Positions 5,336-13,356 of a stretch of 23,810 bases of DNA are shown here, piece by piece (position 1 is the first letter of the stretch; every line of letters begins with the position of its first letter). The translations under genes were made by a program, and so were the position numbers. The stretch lies in IMG/VR virus record IMGVR_UViG_3300017963_000744, positions 1 through 23,810 of that record; one strand, written 5' to 3'. The notes beneath the pieces were generated by a model, which was not told the origin of the DNA, searched no databases, and saw only the letters and a program-made list of their open reading frames with translations. This DNA comes from a virus.

Positions 5336-5716
5336 ATGGGGAAGTATTTTAATCCGAAGCGTGGTCCTGTGACGGTATCGTTGAGGACAGGGGAGTCTGC
5401 TATTGTGGGGCCTAAGAAGGTGCTTCGTGTGTCTCCAGAGCAGGATGGGTCTGCTATGTTGCATGCTATGGTTCGTCGCAAACTCCTTATAAGGTTACCG
5501 GATGATGTTGTGGCGGAGAATGTAGTGGGGGAAGTGGTTAAATCTGTGGAGCCTCAGATTTCTAAATCGGTAGACAGTACGGAGTTGAAAGAAGAGCTGC
5601 CGAGTATGAAATGGTCTAAGAAGAGGTTAAAGGAATATGCAGAGTGCAAAGGTTTGGAAATTTTGCCAGGTTCGGTTAAACTGGAGATCTTGAGGGTGAT
5701 TGAAAGTGCTAGTTAG
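5336..5716 (+). CDS. Small protein with C-terminal HeH/SAP-like motif
   Basis: A 126-residue protein; ATG start with AAGGAG at 5326-5331, overlapping the end of the previous gene. The N-terminal 55 residues are beta-like and contain 'T-G-E-S' followed by a helix and 'K-L-L-I-R-L'. A similar layout (G-E-S, helix, hydrophobic strand, acidic tail) begins the protein at 8458-8805. A Glu/Val/Ser linker follows. The last 36 residues (91-126) carry W-S-K-K-x-L-x-E-Y-A, then G-L and I-L, closely matching the C-terminal motif of the protein at 831-1400. HeH/SAP-like tails bind nucleic acid or protein in other contexts; here the partner is unknown. Confidence 0.7.
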   Translation: MGKYFNPKRGPVTVSLRTGESAIVGPKKVLRVSPEQDGSAMLHAMVRRKLLIRLPDDVVAENVVGEVVKSVEPQISKSVDSTELKEELPSMKWSKKRLKEYAECKGLEILPGSVKLEILRVIESAS

Positions 5717-5752: not shown

Positions 5753-5775
5753 ACGGACGAGGTACGACTGTCCGT
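5753..5775 (+). promoter_or_regulatory. Small hairpin in the 80-bp leader of the sheath gene
   Basis: ACGGAC (5753-5758) and GTCCGT (5770-5775) form a perfect 6-bp inverted repeat with an 11-base loop. It ends 9 bases before the GGAGGT (5785-5790) of the sheath gene. It could be an mRNA processing or stability element or an operator. No good sigma70 promoter pair was seen nearby. Confidence 0.3.
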
Positions 5776-5796
5776 AAATAGATTCGGAGGTAACTG

Positions 5797-8370
5797 ATGG
5801 CGGAAATTCTCAGTCCAGGCGTGTTTGTGGAAGAGGTACCGAGTGCCGTTCAGGTTGTTCAACCGGTGTCCACATCTAACATGGGGATTATTGGTGCGAC
5901 TCAGAGAGGTCCTACTGACGAGGCTACGTTGGTGACTTCGTTTTCTCAGTTTACTAAGATTTTTGGTGAGCTTATAGCGGATTCTAGAACTGGTTTGGCG
6001 ATGGCGGCGTATTTTGCGAACGGTGGTAAGCGAGCTTATGTTGTTCGTGTTATGCCGGGTGATGCTGTTGAGGCTGGTTCTTCTGTGAGTGCTCCGTCGG
6101 CATATGATCTTGGACAGTTAACGAGTGCTCGACGAAATTTTCAATGTAATATAGGTGATGGTGTCACTGCGGCTGTTACTGAGTTGGTTCTTACTCCGAC
6201 TGCATTGGTTACTCCTATTGTGGCTGTGCCGGGTACGGCCGGTGTGACGTTCAGATGGAGAGCAGATGATTCTGGTGTGACTACTGAGAATTTGTTTGAG
6301 CGGGATGGTGTTACTGCGCTTGTTCAGGATTCAGTAGGTCATCCGAATCATCATTATGAGGGGCGTGTTGTCACTTCTATGCCTAGTGATGGAGTGGATT
6401 CTTCGCTTCCGAGCATAATGCCTGGTGCTACTATTACGTTGAATTGGGATCCTGATGGTGGTACTCCGACAACTCTGGCATTGACTCAAGTTGGGACCAC
6501 ATTGCGTGCGACGGGTACGTCTGGGCAAGGAACTGTGGCAGAGCTTGATCTAATCACTGGTTTCTTGGTTGTGACGTTTGCTGGTACTGAAGTTCCTGTC
6601 GTTGGTGGTGATGGTGGTAATATCACTCTGGATTATACTCCTGGTACTGATGTGATTTCGATTGTGGATAATGGGAGTGGTGTTATTCCTGCCACAGCGG
6701 ATCTTACAGGTGCTGGTACGGTTGCGTATGTGGGTGCTACCGCTGGTGCTTATTCGTTCACGGCTGCGGCTGGGTCTGAGCCTGGGACGGGGTGTCCTGT
6801 TCTCTGTGATTATGATATTCAGGCGTGGGATCTCGACCCCATATCTGTGGGTACATGGGCGAATGATATGAGGGTGGAGTGCATTGGGAATGATGATTAT
6901 TACACCAATGCAACGGATACGTATACAAGGTTTAACATCAATGTTAGGTTGTTGAACTCGTTGACGAGTCTCTATGACATTATAGAGACTTATGAGGAAA
7001 TAACCTTCACGGATACCACGTCGGCGCAGTACTTTCCTGATGTGCTGAATGACCTTTCGGACTTGGTTAATGTTGTAGAACCGGCTGATACGGCGGAGGG
7101 ACCTCAACATCTTAATGGGTTGGCAAGGAGTTTGATTGTAGCGGCTGGAGATGAATTAACTGGGAATCGCCAGATTACTACGACCTTGCTTGATCTTCCG
7201 ATTAATGCTCGATCTGTTCAGATTGATTGGACGGATGATGGTGGTACAGCTCGCAGTATTACTGATGATGGTGCTGGGAATTTGATTGGTGATGTGGATG
7301 CGGCTGGGAACAATACGATCAATTACACTACTGGTGCGTTGGATGTGTTGCTTTCTAATGCTATAGGTCAGGATCAGTTAGTGCCTGTTGTGTATCGGTC
7401 TACATCTGAGGAAGATTCTCATGTAGATACTTTTTCGGGTGGTACGGATGGTACGTTTGATACCACGAACTATGGTCGTAGTCAGTTCACGGTGATAACG
7501 CTTGAACCGAATTTCCAAGGTCTCTACGCTCTGAATAAAATCGAAGAATTGATGCAGGTTGTGATTCCGGATTTCGCTGGTGATATTCAGATTACGAAAG
7601 ATATCATGGATTATGTAGATGGCAGGGAGTCGTTGCCTTCAGGTGGAGATCGGTTTGCAATTTTTGTTGTTCCACAGGGATCTTCAGCTCAGGAAGCTGT
7701 GGATTTCTTGAGGATTGATATAGCTCAAAATTCCAAGTTCTGTGCTATGTATTGGCCTTGGGTTAAAGTGGCAGATCCGTTGGCTGACAATCGGCCGGTA
7801 GTATTCCCGCCTCTAGGTCATATAGCTGGTATTTATGCAAGAACTGATTCGACGCGTAATGTTGGGAAAGTGCCTGCTGGTACTGTGGATGGTGCTTTGA
7901 GTTTTCTTGTGGGTTTGGAAATTGATTCTATCAGTCAGGGTGAGCGCGATGTGGTTTATCCGGCGCGTATTAATCCTCTAGTTTCTAGTCCTCAAACGGG
8001 TCTTGCGGTGTGGGGTGCTAGGACCACGTCACTTCAGAGTGAGTGGAGGTATATCAATGCTCGTCGGTTGTTCATGTTTGTTGAGAAATCGGTATATAAT
8101 TCAACCCACTGGATTGTTTTTGAGAATAATGGTCCTGGTCTTTGGGCAAGGATCAAGGCACAGATTCAGGGATTCCTGACGAATCTATTCAATGATGGTC
8201 TTTTTGCGGGTACGACCCCAGCGCAGGCTTTCTATGTTACGGTGGATGAATCGAATAATGATGCGGCATCTATAGACGCGGGGCAGGTGATTATTGATGT
8301 GGGTATCGCGCCGAATAAACCTGCGGAGTTTGTCAGGTTCAGGTTTGCTCATAAGACTTTAGATTCATAG
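5797..8370 (+). CDS. Contractile tail sheath protein, gp18-like, with insertions
   Basis: An 857-residue subunit of the contractile sheath that surrounds the tail tube. ATG start with a strong GGAGGT 6 bases upstream. The N terminus 'L-S-P-G-V-F-V-E-E-V' and 'G-I-I-G-A-T-Q-R-G-P' (residues 5-39) is the classic sheath opening. The C terminus from about 740 ('Y-I-N-A-R-R-L-F-M-F-V-E-K-S-V', 'F-E-N-N-G-P-G-L-W-A-R-I') and the final strand 'A-E-F-V-R-F-R-F' form the conserved C-terminal sheath domain. The conserved middle core returns at about 340-425 with 'G-T-W-A-N-D-M-R-V'. Two insertions, roughly 115-335 and 432-550, are beta-rich and contain related modules at 205-282 and 462-534. They probably project outwards on the sheath. 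It is longer than the 659-residue T4 gp18. Confidence 0.95.
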   Translation: MAEILSPGVFVEEVPSAVQVVQPVSTSNMGIIGATQRGPTDEATLVTSFSQFTKIFGELIADSRTGLAMAAYFANGGKRAYVVRVMPGDAVEAGSSVSAPSAYDLGQLTSARRNFQCNIGDGVTAAVTELVLTPTALVTPIVAVPGTAGVTFRWRADDSGVTTENLFERDGVTALVQDSVGHPNHHYEGRVVTSMPSDGVDSSLPSIMPGATITLNWDPDGGTPTTLALTQVGTTLRATGTSGQGTVAELDLITGFLVVTFAGTEVPVVGGDGGNITLDYTPGTDVISIVDNGSGVIPATADLTGAGTVAYVGATAGAYSFTAAAGSEPGTGCPVLCDYDIQAWDLDPISVGTWANDMRVECIGNDDYYTNATDTYTRFNINVRLLNSLTSLYDIIETYEEITFTDTTSAQYFPDVLNDLSDLVNVVEPADTAEGPQHLNGLARSLIVAAGDELTGNRQITTTLLDLPINARSVQIDWTDDGGTARSITDDGAGNLIGDVDAAGNNTINYTTGALDVLLSNAIGQDQLVPVVYRSTSEEDSHVDTFSGGTDGTFDTTNYGRSQFTVITLEPNFQGLYALNKIEELMQVVIPDFAGDIQITKDIMDYVDGRESLPSGGDRFAIFVVPQGSSAQEAVDFLRIDIAQNSKFCAMYWPWVKVADPLADNRPVVFPPLGHIAGIYARTDSTRNVGKVPAGTVDGALSFLVGLEIDSISQGERDVVYPARINPLVSSPQTGLAVWGARTTSLQSEWRYINARRLFMFVEKSVYNSTHWIVFENNGPGLWARIKAQIQGFLTNLFNDGLFAGTTPAQAFYVTVDESNNDAASIDAGQVIIDVGIAPNKPAEFVRFRFAHKTLDS

Positions 8371-8457: not shown

Positions 8458-8805
8458 ATGTTGGTGACGTTTACAAATGCATCTTCTGAAGATAGATTCA
8501 TCAGTCTTCTGTACAAAAATTTGGAGGCAGGTGAGTCGGTGCAGGTTTCGAAATCACGATCTGAGCTTGATCAAGAACAAGAGTTGAAAAAGTTGGTACA
8601 GGATGGCACGATCGTACTTTCTTTTGCAGAGGAAGATGGAGATGATGCTGCGGTTGGAACCGAGCCGCATCCGGCGTTCTCGAATTTGACGCGACCGTTG
8701 CCAACCGTTTGGCCGATTTATTCGGCTATATGGAATACAGATGATAATGCGCTGAATTGGACGGATGGGACAAATTGGCGTGCGGCTGATGGGACGATCA
8801 CGTGA
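8458..8805 (+). CDS. Small virion-type protein with a W-rich C-terminal tail
   Basis: A 115-residue protein; ATG start with GGAGGAG at 8447-8453. The N-terminal 60 residues (V-T-F-T-N then 'L-E-A-G-E-S-V-Q-V', helix, 'K-L-V-Q-D-G-T-I-V-L-S-F') look like a small beta domain similar in layout to the start of the protein at 5336-5716. After an acidic linker, the C terminus (about 88-115) has 'I-W-N-T-D-D-N-A-L-N-W-T-D-G-T-N-W-R', a pattern I associate with surface and appendage proteins of uncultivated phages. It lies between sheath and tube genes. A small structural or decoration component of the tail is the likely role, but unproven. Confidence 0.65.
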   Translation: MLVTFTNASSEDRFISLLYKNLEAGESVQVSKSRSELDQEQELKKLVQDGTIVLSFAEEDGDDAAVGTEPHPAFSNLTRPLPTVWPIYSAIWNTDDNALNWTDGTNWRAADGTIT

Positions 8806-8862: not shown

Positions 8863-9843
8863 ATGGCACTTGTAGTGTACAATTTGACGGGGTCGCCGGT
8901 AAGTTTGGCTGCTGGGAATCCTGTTCGTTCGATTCCAGCTAGTGGTAGTCCGCCGTCTTGTGGTCCTGGTGTTGATGTGACTTCTGAGCTTCGGCCTTCT
9001 ACGGCAGTTGATCCTGCTAATGGTGTGACTGGAGGATTGGACGCTGCGGATTATTCTGCTCTTCAAGCGCAAGTGGGTTCGCTTGCTTTCGAGTGGACTA
9101 GGGATCCGGAGTATCTGACATCTGGATTGAGTGTTGGTGGGCCAACGGCTGGTGTTCATGCAACTTCGCATCAGAATGGTGGGAGTGATGAAGTCAGTGT
9201 GGCTGGTTTGAGCGGTGTTCTTGCTGATGCACAGATTCCATCAACTCCTGGTGTTATTGCTTCGTTTCGGCTTGTTCAGTCTGGTCAGCCGACTGCTACC
9301 GATACGTTGAGTATAGGTGCTGATGTTTATGAGGCGGATGGTGCGGGGGCGAACATCAATTTTGTGATAGCTGGTACGGCTGAAGCGACGATGGATAATT
9401 TACTTGCTGCTATTCAGGCGTCTGGTACAGAGGATGTTGTTGCTTCCAAGGTCAACGCTACTACTTTACTTGTTCAGTCTGCCGATGCTCCGAATGGATC
9501 TGCTGTTGCTGCCAGTCCGGATATTGCTATTGTCAATGGTCTGACCAATTATGCATCATCTATTGGCGATGCGAATATGAATACTCTTGCAGGTAGAGCT
9601 GCAGGAGCTGTTCAGATGAGTGTTGTTTCATTGACGATCACGGCGGCTATGGTAACGGCTGCGGAGGCGCGTGTTACGTTGCCGTTTACTCCTGTTGCGT
9701 TCAATCCGGTCGTTTTGAATACTTCTGGAGATATCAAAGCGGCTGGTGCAGATTCCTTCACTATCAGTGGTGATGATATTGTCATAGCGCTTGGTGGTGC
9801 AGACATCGTGGCTACTGATGTTGTGCGTATGATTGTATGGTAG
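8863..9843 (+). CDS. Probable virion structural / fibre-type protein
   Basis: A 326-residue protein; ATG start with TAGGAGAG just upstream. The N-terminal part (1-75) is a beta-like domain ending in 'L-D-A-A-D-Y-S-A-L-Q-A-Q-V' and 'F-E-W-T-R-D-P-E-Y-L'. At about 98-123 is the motif 'H-A-T-S-H-Q-N-G-G-S-D-E-V-S-V-A-G-L-S-G-V-L-A-D-A-Q', a hallmark of phage fibre and other virion surface proteins, usually a trimeric collar between domains. The C-terminal 200 residues are Ala/Val/Thr-rich beta sequence without catalytic motifs. It sits between sheath and tube genes, which is unusual for a host-recognition fibre, so a collar, whisker or sheath decoration role is also possible. Confidence 0.7.
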   Translation: MALVVYNLTGSPVSLAAGNPVRSIPASGSPPSCGPGVDVTSELRPSTAVDPANGVTGGLDAADYSALQAQVGSLAFEWTRDPEYLTSGLSVGGPTAGVHATSHQNGGSDEVSVAGLSGVLADAQIPSTPGVIASFRLVQSGQPTATDTLSIGADVYEADGAGANINFVIAGTAEATMDNLLAAIQASGTEDVVASKVNATTLLVQSADAPNGSAVAASPDIAIVNGLTNYASSIGDANMNTLAGRAAGAVQMSVVSLTITAAMVTAAEARVTLPFTPVAFNPVVLNTSGDIKAAGADSFTISGDDIVIALGGADIVATDVVRMIVW

Positions 9844-9899
9844 TTGAATCTCGATCGTGTTGGTATTATAGGTTTTAAACAGAGAAGGGAGGCTGTCAA

Positions 9900-10433
9900 A
9901 TGGCGAGGCCAGTAGCGGAAGATTTTTTGCACTCGATGCGGTTTCATGTCGAGGTTATTGATGGGACTCGGCCCGATGCAGGCTTTGGCCCGCCGGAGGC
10001 TGGTTTCTCTATGTGTTCGGTGCCGGAGGCGACTGTTGAGTCGGTGGAATACAAAGAAGGTACCTACATTTACACGCGGAAACAACCTGGAAACACGTCA
10101 TTCTCTGACGTTTCGTTATCGAGAGGGGTAGCTATTACTGACTCTGCGTTTTGGACGTGGATGAAGATTGTGATGGAGGGTGCCGGTGAGTATCGGCAGG
10201 ATGTAAGAATCAAACACTATCATCGTGAGGAGGGTCTTCCTGGTAGTGGGGATGTCGGTGCAAATTTGACAGCTATTCCGACAAGTGTTGATGCTGCTAG
10301 AACGTATGAGTTGTTTAATGCGTTTCCAGCGCGTCATAAGGTTGCTGGTGATCTTGATGCTACCGCGTCCGAAATTTCCATCATGGAATTAGATCTCTCA
10401 ATTGAGTATTTCAATGTGATCATTGCTGCATAG
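9900..10433 (+). CDS. Tail tube protein, gp19 family (first copy)
   Basis: A 177-residue member of the T4 gp19 tail tube family, which forms stacked hexameric rings through which DNA passes. ATG start with GGGAGG at about 9887-9892. Diagnostic features are 'F-H-V-E-V' near residue 15, 'V-E-Y-K-E-G' then 'R-K-Q-P-G-N' at 49-64, 'F-W-T-W-M-K-I-V' at 84-91, and a C terminus 'F-P-A-R-H-K-V-A-G-D-L-D-A-T-x-S-E-I-S-I-M-E-L-D-L-S-I-E-Y-F' at 142-171. It is close to the family's usual length. A second, divergent family member follows immediately. This compact one is the better candidate for the main tube subunit. Confidence 0.9.
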   Translation: MARPVAEDFLHSMRFHVEVIDGTRPDAGFGPPEAGFSMCSVPEATVESVEYKEGTYIYTRKQPGNTSFSDVSLSRGVAITDSAFWTWMKIVMEGAGEYRQDVRIKHYHREEGLPGSGDVGANLTAIPTSVDAARTYELFNAFPARHKVAGDLDATASEISIMELDLSIEYFNVIIAA

Positions 10434-10460: not shown

Positions 10461-11240
10461 ATGCGTAGTACGCTCACAGATTATCTTCAAACGTATGCGT
10501 TTTGGCTTATGGACGTAGCGCCTATTGAGCCATTGGCATTACCTATTTTTACTCCGTTGTTGGGATTCTCATCTATTACGGCTCCAGAGATACAGTTGGA
10601 TATCAAGGAGATTACTGAGGCCAACTGGTTTTTCAAGCGGAAGGTTGTTCAGGGTGGTAATGTTGGGAATATAACATTGATGCGAGCGTCGAAATGGTAT
10701 GACAATGATTTCTATAAATGGGTTGTGGCTGCGTTGGCTGGGAATACGGGTGGGCGAGGTGCTTTGCATGCGATGGCTGTAGGAGGGGCTACTCCGCGTA
10801 GGGATTTGTTATTGATGCATTTTATGTCTCGGAGTCCGTTTCCGAAGGGGTGGTCGCAGGCTGTGGCTGCTACGGGTATTTTGGCGCTTCAAGGTACAGC
10901 AACTGGTATGACTGGTAACGCAGCTAGTTTGGCGTCTAGGGGGTATATAGAGCACGCTGCGGCTATTACGGGCGCGGCGGTGGCGTCGGGTTTAGGACAG
11001 CAGATAGGGCCGTTTGAGCTTACGCCAAGGTTGCCGGCTAAGGCCTGGGTGTTGTATGGTTGTTTGCCGACTCGGTACAAATCTGGAGGCGATTTTGATG
11101 CATCTGACAGCTCGATTTCTATACAGGAATTGGAGTTGGCCGTTGAGTATTGGGATGAGCTTGCGTTGGGCAGTGAAGCTGCGCCGGTAGCGTTGGGTGT
11201 TGCGATTGCAGATGCTGTTGGTAGTCCGACATCGAGATGA
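10461..11240 (+). CDS. Second gp19-family tail tube-like protein
   Basis: A 259-residue paralogue of the preceding tube protein. Shared features are 'F-F-K-R-K-V-V-Q-G-G-N-V-G-N-I-T-L-M' (57-74), 'W-Y-D-N-D-F-Y-K-W-V' (79-88) and 'L-P-T-R-Y-K-S-G-G-D-F-D-A-S-x-S-S-I-S-I-Q-E-L-E-L-A-V-E-Y-W' (202-231). Between them is an Ala/Gly-rich insertion at about 130-185, and a 28-residue Ala/Val tail follows. No strong ribosome binding site precedes ATG 10461, which suggests lower output. Second gp19-fold proteins in contractile tails often act at the tube-baseplate junction (T4 gp54 and gp48 are examples of tube-initiating proteins; eCIS also carry a second tube gene). A junction or initiator role is inferred. 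Confidence 0.82.
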   Translation: MRSTLTDYLQTYAFWLMDVAPIEPLALPIFTPLLGFSSITAPEIQLDIKEITEANWFFKRKVVQGGNVGNITLMRASKWYDNDFYKWVVAALAGNTGGRGALHAMAVGGATPRRDLLLMHFMSRSPFPKGWSQAVAATGILALQGTATGMTGNAASLASRGYIEHAAAITGAAVASGLGQQIGPFELTPRLPAKAWVLYGCLPTRYKSGGDFDASDSSISIQELELAVEYWDELALGSEAAPVALGVAIADAVGSPTSR

Positions 11241-11248
11241 GGTGTGTG

Positions 11249-11434
11249 ATGAGTGATTGGGAGACATTGGATACAGAGAAGTTACTTCGAAAGCGCCGGG
11301 AGCAGCATGAGGCGACGACTTCTACAGGTGTAGGTAGTTATGAAACTCCTTTGGGAGAACCGTTGCGGCCTTCTGTGGTTCCGTGTAAGCCTGTAGAGCG
11401 CTCGAAAAAGAAGAAGAAGCGGGAGACGGATTGA
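11249..11434 (+). CDS. Small Lys/Arg-rich hypothetical protein
   Basis: A 61-residue protein. ATG 11249 is preferred because GAGGTG (11239-11244) lies 4 bases upstream. The alternative ATG 11237 overlaps the previous stop by four bases but lacks a binding site and would add four residues. The N terminus is a charged helix (about 1-22), the middle is Ser/Thr/Pro/Gly-rich, and the last 12 residues are almost all Lys, Arg and Glu. It has no recognised domain. It sits between tube and chaperone genes, where small tail-assembly factors are common. Confidence 0.6.
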   Translation: MSDWETLDTEKLLRKRREQHEATTSTGVGSYETPLGEPLRPSVVPCKPVERSKKKKKRETD

Positions 11435-11724
11435 TGGCTGTTCCCTCAAAATCTGTGATAGAGTGTGATGGTTTTATTCAGTGTGAACACATTGATTATT
11501 TTTTAGATAGTGTTTTTGGGAGTATGTGTAATTTCAGAGAATTTTATAGGGATGGGTATTTTTATTGTGATACTTTTAAATGTGCTGTTACAGCGGAGTG
11601 TGCGGCAGAGAATGGTTGGATTGCTATGGCGGAGTGTTGGAGGGATTCGAATGGTTGTCTGTCGGATTGCATTGTGTTTAATTGTTCGTCTGAAGATTGT
11701 TTGAGAATCAAAAGACGTGTGTAG
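11434..11724 (+). CDS. Cysteine-rich small protein of unknown function
   Basis: A 96-residue protein. ATG 11434 overlaps the preceding TGA by one base, with GGGAGA at 11421-11426; a TTG one codon earlier is less likely. It has 11 cysteines spread through the chain, at about residues 10, 16, 31, 44, 49, 55, 67, 74, 78, 83 and 88, and many aromatic residues. The spacing is not a simple CxxC zinc pattern, and there is no signal peptide that would suggest a secreted disulfide-rich protein. Its base composition is more AT-rich than the tube genes. I do not recognise the family. Confidence 0.6.
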   Translation: MAVPSKSVIECDGFIQCEHIDYFLDSVFGSMCNFREFYRDGYFYCDTFKCAVTAECAAENGWIAMAECWRDSNGCLSDCIVFNCSSEDCLRIKRRV

Positions 11725-11741: not shown

Positions 11742-11761
11742 TTACTTAAAAGTTGAAGTAA
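11742..11761 (+). promoter_or_regulatory. Inverted repeat upstream of the RHH-domain gene (possible operator)
   Basis: TTACTT (11742-11747) and AAGTAA (11756-11761) form a perfect 6-bp inverted repeat with an 8-base centre. An inner ACTT-AA-AAGT symmetry overlaps it. It ends 1-2 bases before the GAGAGGTG ribosome binding site of a gene encoding two ribbon-helix-helix repeats. That fold typically binds short inverted or tandem sites and often autoregulates. The operator role is inference. Confidence 0.35.
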
Positions 11762-11774
11762 GAGAGGTGAAGTT

Positions 11775-12347
11775 GTGGTAGAGATTTTGAATGTGTCCTC
11801 TGATGACAGGAAGGAGGCGTGGGCTACTCGAGTATGGGTGGCTTGCGGGGGTAAATGCTCGAATTGCGGGTCAGATGAGCGTCTGAAGGTTCGGATGATT
11901 GTTCCGGCGGAGTTAGGTGGTCGGAAAGTTGTGAGTAATGGTACTTTGCTTTGTCGGACGTGTGAGTTGGCTGATCAGATCGGCAGGAAAGTACCTCAGC
12001 CAGCTTCTGGGGAGCATACTCGCCCTATAAATTTTTATATAGGGAAGGAGCTTCACGGTCGCCTTAAGAATGGTTTAGCTTCTGACTATGGTTTTAGAAG
12101 TGTGTCGGCTTTGGTAAGGTTTCTTATGTCGACGTTTGTTGCTGATCCTGTGCGGTTTGATGATCTCGGTATGTATCAGGGGGGTGGTTCAGATGTGAAA
12201 GTGAATGTGTGGGTTGGTCGGGATGTTTATGATCGATTCAAGGCTATAGCTGATAGTAATGGTTTCACTGTTACTGATACCTTGAAGGGTTTGATAGTTA
12301 TGTATGAGGTTGAAACTCAACGTATTGTAGGGAGGATTGGAAGATGA
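11775..12347 (+). CDS. Degenerate HNH zinc domain fused to tandem ribbon-helix-helix repeats
   Basis: A 190-residue protein starting at GTG, with GAGAGGTG at 11763-11770. Residues 24-65 follow the HNH layout: Cys28-x2-Cys31, then 'V-R-M-I-V-P-A-E-L-G-G', 'S-N-G-T-L-L' and Cys60-x2-Cys63. The usual catalytic 'D-H' is Arg40-Met41, and the His after the second knuckle is Glu64, so nuclease activity is unlikely. Residues 85-122 and 143-180 are two clearly related ribbon-helix-helix units (aligned 'I/V-N-F/V-Y/W-I/V-G-K/R-E/D', 'R-L/F-K', 'G-F'), probably folding as a pseudo-dimer. Zinc knuckle plus RHH suggests sequence-specific DNA binding by a regulator. It overlaps the chaperone gene by four bases. 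An inactivated homing-type gene is an alternative origin. Confidence 0.75.
   Translation: MVEILNVSSDDRKEAWATRVWVACGGKCSNCGSDERLKVRMIVPAELGGRKVVSNGTLLCRTCELADQIGRKVPQPASGEHTRPINFYIGKELHGRLKNGLASDYGFRSVSALVRFLMSTFVADPVRFDDLGMYQGGGSDVKVNVWVGRDVYDRFKAIADSNGFTVTDTLKGLIVMYEVETQRIVGRIGR
12023..12044 (+). repeat. Perfect 7-bp inverted repeat within the RHH gene
   Basis: CCCTATA (12023-12029) and TATAGGG (12038-12044) flank an 8-base AT centre. They lie exactly where the coding sequence passes from the zinc domain to the first RHH repeat. TATAAATT inside it also resembles a T4-type late -10 element. It may be an internal operator, a promoter or a chance effect of codon use. Confidence 0.4.
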
Positions 12348-13180
12348 GTGATGAGGGGGTTGTTAGTTCAAATGTTGGTGCGGCTGTGGGTGGTATAGAG
12401 CATGTGCACACAGTTAATCAGATGGAGACTGCGAAGTCTACTGAAGGTATATTTGAGCTTCCGTGTGGGTATTTGGATGTGAATACTCAGGAAGTGATTA
12501 AAGATGTTCAAATCAGGGAGATTACTGGCCGGGAAGAGGATATGTTGGCGTCTTCACGTTTGTCGTCTACTCAGAAGATATCATCGCTTTTGACAGGGTG
12601 CGTGGTTCGGATCGGGGTGGTGACGGATAAGGGGCATATTACTCGTATAGTGCAAAATTTGACTGTAGGGGATCGTTTTTTTCTTATTTTTGCGATTAGG
12701 CGTGTGACACTTGGGGATGATTTTCCTGTACGGGAGCGGTGTCCGGAGTGTGGTGTGAAGACGTTGTTTATGGTGGATTTAGGGGAGGATTTAACAGTGC
12801 GATCTATGCCTGATCCTAGCAGAAGATTGTATGATGTGGTGTTGCCGTCGTCTGGAGTTCTCGCGCGTTTTAAAGTGTCCACAGGTATGGATGAAGAGCG
12901 TCTAGCTAAGATTAGGAAACATAATAAGAATATGGATGCATTGTCTCAGGGGATACTAATGCGTTTGGAGTTGTTGGGAGATGAGAAACCTACGCTTCGT
13001 ATGGTTCAGGATTTGGGCATGAGAGATCGCCATTATCTTCGAGAGCAATTCCAATCTGTTGAAGGTGGGGTGGATACTACGTTAGAATTGGAATGTCCTT
13101 CTTGTGGCAATGAATGGGAGAAGGAATTGGATTTAGGTGGTACGGGTTTTTTCTTCCCTGGGGGTCGGCGAAGGTCTTAG
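12344..13180 (+). CDS. Tail assembly chaperone / baseplate protein (T4_baseplate family)
   Basis: A 278-residue protein; ATG start in an ATGA overlap, with GGGAGG just upstream. It matches the T4 baseplate-assembly family (gp26/gp51-type) pattern: 'V-Q-I-R-E-I-T-G-R-E-E-D-M-L' at 55-68, 'L-T-V-G-D-R-F-F-L-I-F-A-I-R' at 106-119, zinc ribbon Cys133-x2-Cys136, 'V-L-P-S-S-G' at 166-171, and a second knuckle Cys251-x2-Cys254. In phages with this order the protein precedes the tape measure and serves as its chaperone, comparable to lambda gpG. Its last codons read through a T TTT TTC slippery heptamer, where a -1 shift would replace the last eight residues with a 67-residue extension, giving 337 residues. 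Confidence 0.82.
   Translation: MSDEGVVSSNVGAAVGGIEHVHTVNQMETAKSTEGIFELPCGYLDVNTQEVIKDVQIREITGREEDMLASSRLSSTQKISSLLTGCVVRIGVVTDKGHITRIVQNLTVGDRFFLIFAIRRVTLGDDFPVRERCPECGVKTLFMVDLGEDLTVRSMPDPSRRLYDVVLPSSGVLARFKVSTGMDEERLAKIRKHNKNMDALSQGILMRLELLGDEKPTLRMVQDLGMRDRHYLREQFQSVEGGVDTTLELECPSCGNEWEKELDLGGTGFFFPGGRRRS
13147..13153 (+). promoter_or_regulatory. Putative -1 programmed ribosomal frameshift site (T TTT TTC)
   Basis: In the chaperone frame the codons are GGT TTT TTC, so positions 13147-13153 give the canonical X XXY YYZ heptamer with X=Y=T, Z=C, where both tRNAs can re-pair after slipping back one base. An SD-like AGGTGG lies at 13135-13140 upstream. The 0-frame stop is TAG 13178-13180. 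The -1 frame stays open to 13356. I saw no convincing downstream stem-loop by eye. Confidence 0.65.
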
Positions 13181-13356
13181 AGAAGGAGATTTTTTATTTG
13201 ATGGAAAGTTGGGGATTATCGTATGAATCTATTATGAGTATTCCTGTGACTAGGCGGCATCGTTTGGTGGCTCAGAAGAGTGATTTGGAGAGAAAGCGGC
13301 AGCAAAATCATGAGGCTTCTATGTCAAGAGTGCGAAGGGCACGTCGATCCCGGTGA
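13153..13356 (+). CDS. Frameshifted C-terminal extension of tail assembly chaperone (gpGT-like)
   Basis: This is a -1 frame extension of 67 codons read after F270 of the chaperone, starting L-P-W-G-S and continuing 'L-E-K-E-I-F-Y-L-M-E-S-W-G-L-S-Y-E-S-I-M-S-I-P-V-T-R-R-H-R-L'. The pattern 'I-F-Y-L' then 'S-Y-x-x-I-M-S-I-P-x-x-R-R' is typical of the second tail chaperone domain that binds the tape measure. It ends in an Arg-rich tail. The extension begins before any start codon with a good binding site, which supports fusion by frameshifting. Independent initiation at ATG 13201 (AAGGAG 13183-13188, spacer 12) or ATG 13114 without a clear site is the alternative. Confidence 0.65.
   Translation, partial: LPWGSAKVLEKEIFYLMESWGLSYESIMSIPVTRRHRLVAQKSDLERKRQQNHEASMSRVRRARRSR

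Follow-up and report, generated by a model that had tools for sequence, protein, structure and literature searches.

The gene at positions 11775–12347 of the sequence shown above (here termed X) raises the question of what a protein with DNA-binding features is doing inside the tail operon of a phage. The window, i.e. the whole stretch of 23,810 nucleotides analyzed, is a contractile-tail phage contig. It displays the gene order sheath, two gp19-like tube genes, X and a gp26-like T4_baseplate gene that a DUF6760 frame overlaps, followed by genes for the tape measure and the baseplate. Two small open reading frames are located between the second tube gene and X, and the gp26-like and DUF6760 sequences lie between X and the tape measure. 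The original prediction, made from the sequence alone, had placed X between tube and tape measure genes; this held, and the position is refined to between tail-tube gene 2 and the gp26-like gene. The neighboring genes are:

5797–8370, sheath gene
9900–10433, plus strand, tail-tube gene 1 (Pfam gp19)
10461–11240, plus strand, tail-tube gene 2 (Pfam gp19)
12344–13180, plus strand, gp26-like gene (T4_baseplate, PF12322; Pfam E-value 8.6e-10 and synteny)
13114–13356, plus strand, DUF6760 frame, in the -1 frame and overlapping the gp26-like gene

X is predicted to encode a 190 amino acid protein. A plausible ribosome-binding site supports the start, as does the matching start region in the closest relatives. 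The gene and its domains are:

11775–12347, plus strand, gene X, GTG start, dead HNH-like zinc domain joined to a tandem RHH putative DNA-binding protein
11799–11984, plus strand, X residues 9–70, degenerate HNH/treble-clef zinc domain (C28, C31, C60, C63; catalytic His absent)
12018–12143, plus strand, X residues 82–123, RHH unit 1 (strand-helix-helix in the AF2 model; hhalign match to unit 2)
12144–12194, plus strand, X residues 124–140, linker (FDDL..YQ..) conserved across 37 homologues
12195–12335, plus strand, X residues 141–187, RHH unit 2, whose strand (D)VKVNVWV is the best-conserved stretch

An AF2 model from a 14-row alignment has a mean pLDDT of 81.6. The zinc part is modeled as a helix followed by a zinc-type beta-beta-alpha unit. 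The remainder displays the strand-helix-helix arrangement that defines an RHH unit twice, at E82-89 H91-104 H110-123 and at E141-148 H149-161 H166-189, with pLDDT mostly 75–92 in both units. In the model the two units pack together as in an RHH dimer and share a two-stranded ribbon; this fold aligns to one-chain TraY over both units. A profile-to-profile comparison of unit 1 with unit 2 by hhalign gives a probability of 91% (P 1e-6) at 22% identity over 41 columns, and the duplication within X is thus considered real but old. The linker between the units has an invariant D130, with L131 and Q135 almost so (37 homologues). N-x-W is conserved on both strands of the ribbon, and the ribbon residues K142, N144, W146 and N86 are conserved in 33–36 of 37 homologues.

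In the zinc domain, C28, C31, C60 and C63 are unchanged in 37/37 distinct homologues. With the fold matches, this meets the definition of a treble-clef/beta-beta-alpha zinc domain with a CxxC...CxxC pattern. Pfam HNH and PHROG HNH matches are weak but consistent, found in 14/14 aligned family members, and those of the window protein are under the curated cut-offs. Residue 41, the column of the first catalytic His, is M, L, P, F or R in the family, and residue 64, the column of the last metal-site His, is E, R, D, Q or A; His is present in 0/37 homologues at either position. Thus X does not qualify as an HNH nuclease. The HNH Asn (N55) and the Gly-Gly pair (48–49) are retained, and the other positions invariant in the 37 distinct homologues, besides the cysteines, are P44, G48, G49, N55, R61, S109, R115 and D130. 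It remains plausible that the zinc domain derives remotely from an HNH nuclease.

The original prediction had described a dead HNH domain with intact zinc knuckles fused to two RHH units that are internal duplicates, an architecture for which no described family was known. All of these claims held. Homologues that keep the HNH catalytic residues would have counted against it, and there are none in the 37. The whole architecture corresponds to no described family in Pfam, NCBIfam, PHROGs, INPHARED or PLSDB. X thus appears to be a new variant of RHH regulator that carries a dead, HNH-derived zinc domain, with the reservation that DNA binding is inferred indirectly, from the conserved ribbon and from the operator described below.

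Profile scans found X homologues in 27 IMG/VR loci and in one MAG contig (L029). In all of these X is preceded by a tail-tube gene and followed by the gp26-like gene in the same orientation, and the gp26-like gene is the next conserved gene 3′ of X in all X-bearing loci, with a gap of 0–500 nt. X is always upstream of the gp26-like/DUF6760 pair. The MAG contig is short and is labeled Candidatus Sulfotelmatobacter, possibly through binning, and all the genomes are uncultured fragments. No full-length relative of X was found in 50,697 phage records. Cultured phages and plasmids gave HNH-domain matches only, without a full-length relative, and 396 bacterial genomes of the phylum of L029 gave no further full-length match, just generic HNH domains.

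A survey seeded on the gp26-like gene gave 63 loci, 39 of which have X upstream (gap 0–500 nt). One locus, L139, is alone in having a single-RHH protein at the position of X; this protein matches Pfam RHH_1 above cut-off. More distant loci (gp26 identity ≤33%) are without X, and in L141 nothing is found at that position. In the cultured gp26-like relatives LIS04 and SP-15 the hub gene directly follows the tube gene and no RHH gene is annotated between them. The distances among X proteins correlate with those among the gp26-like proteins (Mantel r 0.877), and the mean pairwise identity is 51% for both. Because of the fixed locus and the co-evolution with the gp26-like gene, X is regarded as a vertically inherited core gene rather than a mobile endonuclease.

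Several other features of these loci were noted. The overlap of the gp26-like and DUF6760 sequences has a slippery TTTTTTC at 13147–13153 in the right phase for a -1 frameshift. An in-phase TTTTTTC is present in this overlap in 24/25 loci checked, including the distant X-less L136, L139 and L141, so a fusion of the two products through programmed frameshifting, as in tail assembly chaperones, is likely. The 65 aa open reading frame at 11237–11434 is conserved between tail-tube gene 2 and X in most relatives. Between it and the operator is a cysteine-rich 97 aa frame at 11431–11724 that has no match in the other contigs and appears to be an orphan insertion. The 189 aa open reading frame at 831–1400 has a run of PVPE repeats, and its C-terminal stretch (WTKKELSEYAVALGLSVKGLTKAQILGAI) is similar by eye to the end of the 5336–5716 open reading frame. 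In L136 a 74 aa protein at the position of X (5771–5992) is RHH-like by eye, without a Pfam match. Upstream of it is the direct repeat GAGTGTAG with a spacing of ~12 bp, which could conceivably be the operator of this protein.

The upstream regions of X share a 20-bp inverted repeat of 8-4-8 form, NTACNTCA-N4-TGANGTAN. The inverted repeat that the original prediction had pointed out upstream of X was confirmed and is the predicted operator of the window, located in the gap that separates the upstream gene from the X start codon:

11742–11761, plus strand, predicted operator TTACTTAA-AAGT-TGAAGTAA, half-sites 11742–11749 and 11754–11761
11762–11769, plus strand, ribosome-binding site of X (GAGAGGTG), read from the sequence and abutting the predicted operator

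The window operator has a leave-one-out PWM score of 20.6, as against 8.6 for the runner-up in the 23.8 kb, and 0/200 Markov windows score as high. With ≤2 mismatches allowed, the plain pattern gives about 10 times as many matches in 27 contigs as a reversed control. A site scoring ≥10 within 130 bp upstream of X is present in 21/23 contigs, at a control rate of 0.3% per region, and the remaining two contigs (G015 and G017) display strong twin sites ahead of the open reading frame just upstream of X. The operator of L025 is a 12/12 match. The matrix was trained on X-upstream sites and the counts for X in the 23 contigs are thus partly circular; the independent tests are the leave-one-out scores, held-out loci and targets other than X. 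Among 14 held-out X loci from the gp26 survey, the best site of the locus is at the X start in nine (L107, L111, L116, L121, L125, L130, L133, L134 and L137). L124 has a weaker site at this position, and no clear operator is found at X in L119 and in the divergent L131, L135 and L140. A conserved operator ahead of its own gene, as expected of an autoregulator, is therefore seen in the 21 of 23 contigs and the 9 of 14 held-out loci. Sites were mapped to genes with a simple greedy ORF caller and tblastn. Because several of the contigs are almost identical, there are fewer independent events than the contig counts suggest.

Twin sites start 23 bp apart in L010–L012 and 32–35 bp apart in L009, L014, L017 and L023, and the half-sites are 12 bp apart. 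This spacing would be compatible with proteins bound next to each other on a single face of the helix, a possibility that is inferred only. The right half-site in many relatives lies directly against the Shine-Dalgarno sequence of X or overlaps it. No sigma-70 promoter was recognized near X in the window. Apart from a weak T at -6 and a purine following the site, the flanks of the sites lack a conserved motif that resembles a promoter. A terminator-like hairpin just upstream of the site is clear in L010, L012, L025, L028 and L125. An upstream terminator as a general rule was rejected, as it is absent in the window and in most relatives. L139 has direct repeats of the half-site TGANGTAV; of 6 copies in 12.7 kb, 4 are at most ~100 bp from where the single-RHH gene starts.

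The operator is also found at other genes. Homologues of tail-tube gene 1 have it in 7–8 of 23 contigs and those of tail-tube gene 2 in 4/23, with the window in neither group. In G013 tail-tube gene 1 is ~45 kb from X, yet it is still preceded by the operator. A predicted structural-protein family without a Pfam match (G013 78267 and homologues) has it in 5/5, and a CIS_tube-like gene (in G022) is also preceded by it. It is present in 3/21 members of the family of the window open reading frame at 8458, in 1/19 sheath genes, and in 0/13 tape measure and 0/10 baseplate J genes. Ahead of 20 other gene families it was found at 0 of 258 mapped starts. Thus in some relatives the operator marks tail-tube and structural genes and almost never others. 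X is the only gene with an operator in the 23.8-kb window, so there X would control its own operon alone. Separately, a perfect operator (score 22.1) lies 2 bp ahead of an 87 aa open reading frame in L033 at ~7198–7480 (G004:67198–67480). This frame (G004 67219) looks by eye like the beginning of a von Willebrand type A domain, and a second von Willebrand-like protein (G013 44839) has a weak site.

With respect to known systems, the best structural match of X residues 81–186 is to F TraY chains (Z 8.9–9.8, rmsd ~3), well above the next rows. TraY of the F plasmid has in common with X the one-chain RHH-dimer fold (Z 9.8 over 98 residues, 10% identity). The F relaxosome study (PMC12117103) describes F TraY as a monomer whose one chain contains the complete RHH-dimer fold, and TraY of R1 as a protein with one RHH that acts as a dimer; these two states are paralleled by the X family versus L139. 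However TraY is a conjugation relaxosome protein at oriT, is without a zinc domain and has no detectable sequence relation to X. An inverted-repeat operator ahead of the own gene is typical of ParG, CopG and Arc-type autoregulators. Likeness of X to this group is seen in sub-threshold matches of unit 2, to ParG in 11/14 family members and to RHH_5 in 6/14; the window protein scores 19.7 with RHH_5 (cut-off 26 bits) and 17.5 with ParG (cut-off 21.4), i.e. below the curated cut-offs. Unlike X, these regulators are single-RHH homodimers without a zinc domain, and none is known to us in a phage tail operon.

VirC2 of the Agrobacterium Ti plasmid is a tandem RHH protein in one chain. It is a weak structural match to X (Z 4.4) and differs in architecture and in its role in T-DNA processing. 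Tandem RHH proteins of archaeal filamentous and rod-shaped viruses resemble X in BFVD models (e.g. A0A3S8NF24, TM 0.76 by target length), but they belong to archaeal viruses, have no HNH-like domain and are in other loci. For the zinc domain, HNH folds match X residues 8–74. HNH nucleases (GVE2 HNH, McrA and IscB HNH) share with X the fold, the C4 zinc knuckles and the HNH Asn, and are set apart by the catalytic histidines, both lost in all 37 X homologues. DotN of the Legionella type IV coupling complex has an HNH-like zinc fold that matches X residues 7–63 (Z ~4); it is a secretion adaptor without RHH, and the fold alone is in common. In the open-licence literature searched, neither the X architecture nor regulation of phage tail genes by an RHH protein was found to be described.

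The architecture, the loss of catalytic residues, the fixed locus, and the conserved operator and its distribution are shown. The reading favored here is that X is likely a sequence-specific DNA-binding autoregulator of tail genes, probably a repressor; DNA binding, stoichiometry and direction are inferred, as there are no binding or expression data. The two RHH units of one chain would fold as an intramolecular pseudo-dimer, TraY-like, whose two-stranded ribbon would read one TGANGTA half-site. Two chains would fill the 20-bp inverted repeat, one per half-site, as inferred from fold and site. With X on its operator, transcription of X, the gp26-like gene, DUF6760 and the tape measure would most likely be prevented, because the operator touches or overlaps the ribosome-binding site of X. 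The result would be negative feedback on tail supply, reaching the tail-tube and other structural genes in some relatives. Negative feedback is favored over activation because the site is universal for X and sporadic for other genes. The geometry itself does not permit repression to be distinguished from activation, and no promoter is recognized near the window operator, so the direction remains an inference. The catalytically dead zinc domain is probably a folding, DNA-binding or partner-binding module, a role that is likewise inferred. In a bolder version, which is unlikely, X would be a tail-assembly checkpoint whose zinc domain binds a tail protein, e.g. the gp26-like/DUF6760 chaperone; unassembled parts or finished tails would then alter binding of X to its operator and tune tail-gene transcription to assembly.

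The autoregulator reading has to be weighed against four other roles. X may be a transcription activator, with the 20-bp element as part of a late promoter and RNA polymerase recruited to X and the tail genes in a positive feedback. The site often follows a terminator-like hairpin with the start codon close behind, which leaves little room for a separate promoter, and no other conserved promoter-like motif is beside the sites. However, apart from X the sites are sporadic, whereas all late operons would be expected to have one if X were an essential late activator; in addition, a site over the ribosome-binding site, as in many relatives, is unusual for an activator. This role is considered unlikely. 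Still less probable is a role in translation, with X as an autorepressor bound to the element in the form of an RNA hairpin that covers the ribosome-binding site. In its favor, the right half-site is directly next to the Shine-Dalgarno sequence or overlaps it. The arms do not covary, which favors a DNA operator over an RNA stem: arm position 5 has 9 pairs versus 9.2 expected from shuffled arms, and positions 6–8 show neither an excess of pairs nor compensating changes, i.e. there is no covariation at any variable inner position. Second sites are regularly spaced and ≥60 bp upstream, and the half-sites in L139 are direct repeats that are unable to pair. RHH ribbons are also known as readers of DNA.

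The original prediction had offered three roles for X, namely a late-gene regulator, a domesticated homing endonuclease, or a structural protein reusing a DNA-binding scaffold. The regulator option is strongly supported by the operator at X and at the tail-tube genes of relatives, in the absence of binding data. An active or recently domesticated homing endonuclease is all but ruled out. In its favor are the HNH profile and fold similarity, and the presence of two endonuclease-like open reading frames in the same operon in L002, recognized by eye: a LAGLIDADG-like frame between the two tube genes (6140–6952, plus strand) and an HNH-type homing-endonuclease-like frame ahead of the tape measure (9615–10313, minus strand). 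From these it appears that real mobile endonucleases do enter the tail operon. Against this role are the loss of both catalytic His residues in 37/37 homologues, the constant place in every X-bearing locus and the correlation with gp26 (Mantel r 0.88); with a fixed locus, vertical inheritance and no catalytic residues, this option fails as a present function. A tail structural or assembly protein is suggested by the fixed position among tail genes, but the conserved putative DNA-contact ribbon has a matching operator, and in a sister lineage X is replaced by a single-RHH protein. This option received no support and is likewise practically excluded.

Late structural genes of phages are usually described as being switched on together by a late activator, a sigma factor or an antiterminator. 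In the phages considered here, an entire group of uncultured viruses with contractile tails, the tail operon contains a putative regulator with a readable, conserved operator, and a nuclease domain has been kept without its catalytic residues over 37 divergent homologues, joined to a TraY-like fused RHH pair. If the autoregulator reading is true, the supply of tail parts in these phages would be under feedback control, an idea that is directly testable because the protein, the site and the targets are all defined by sequence.
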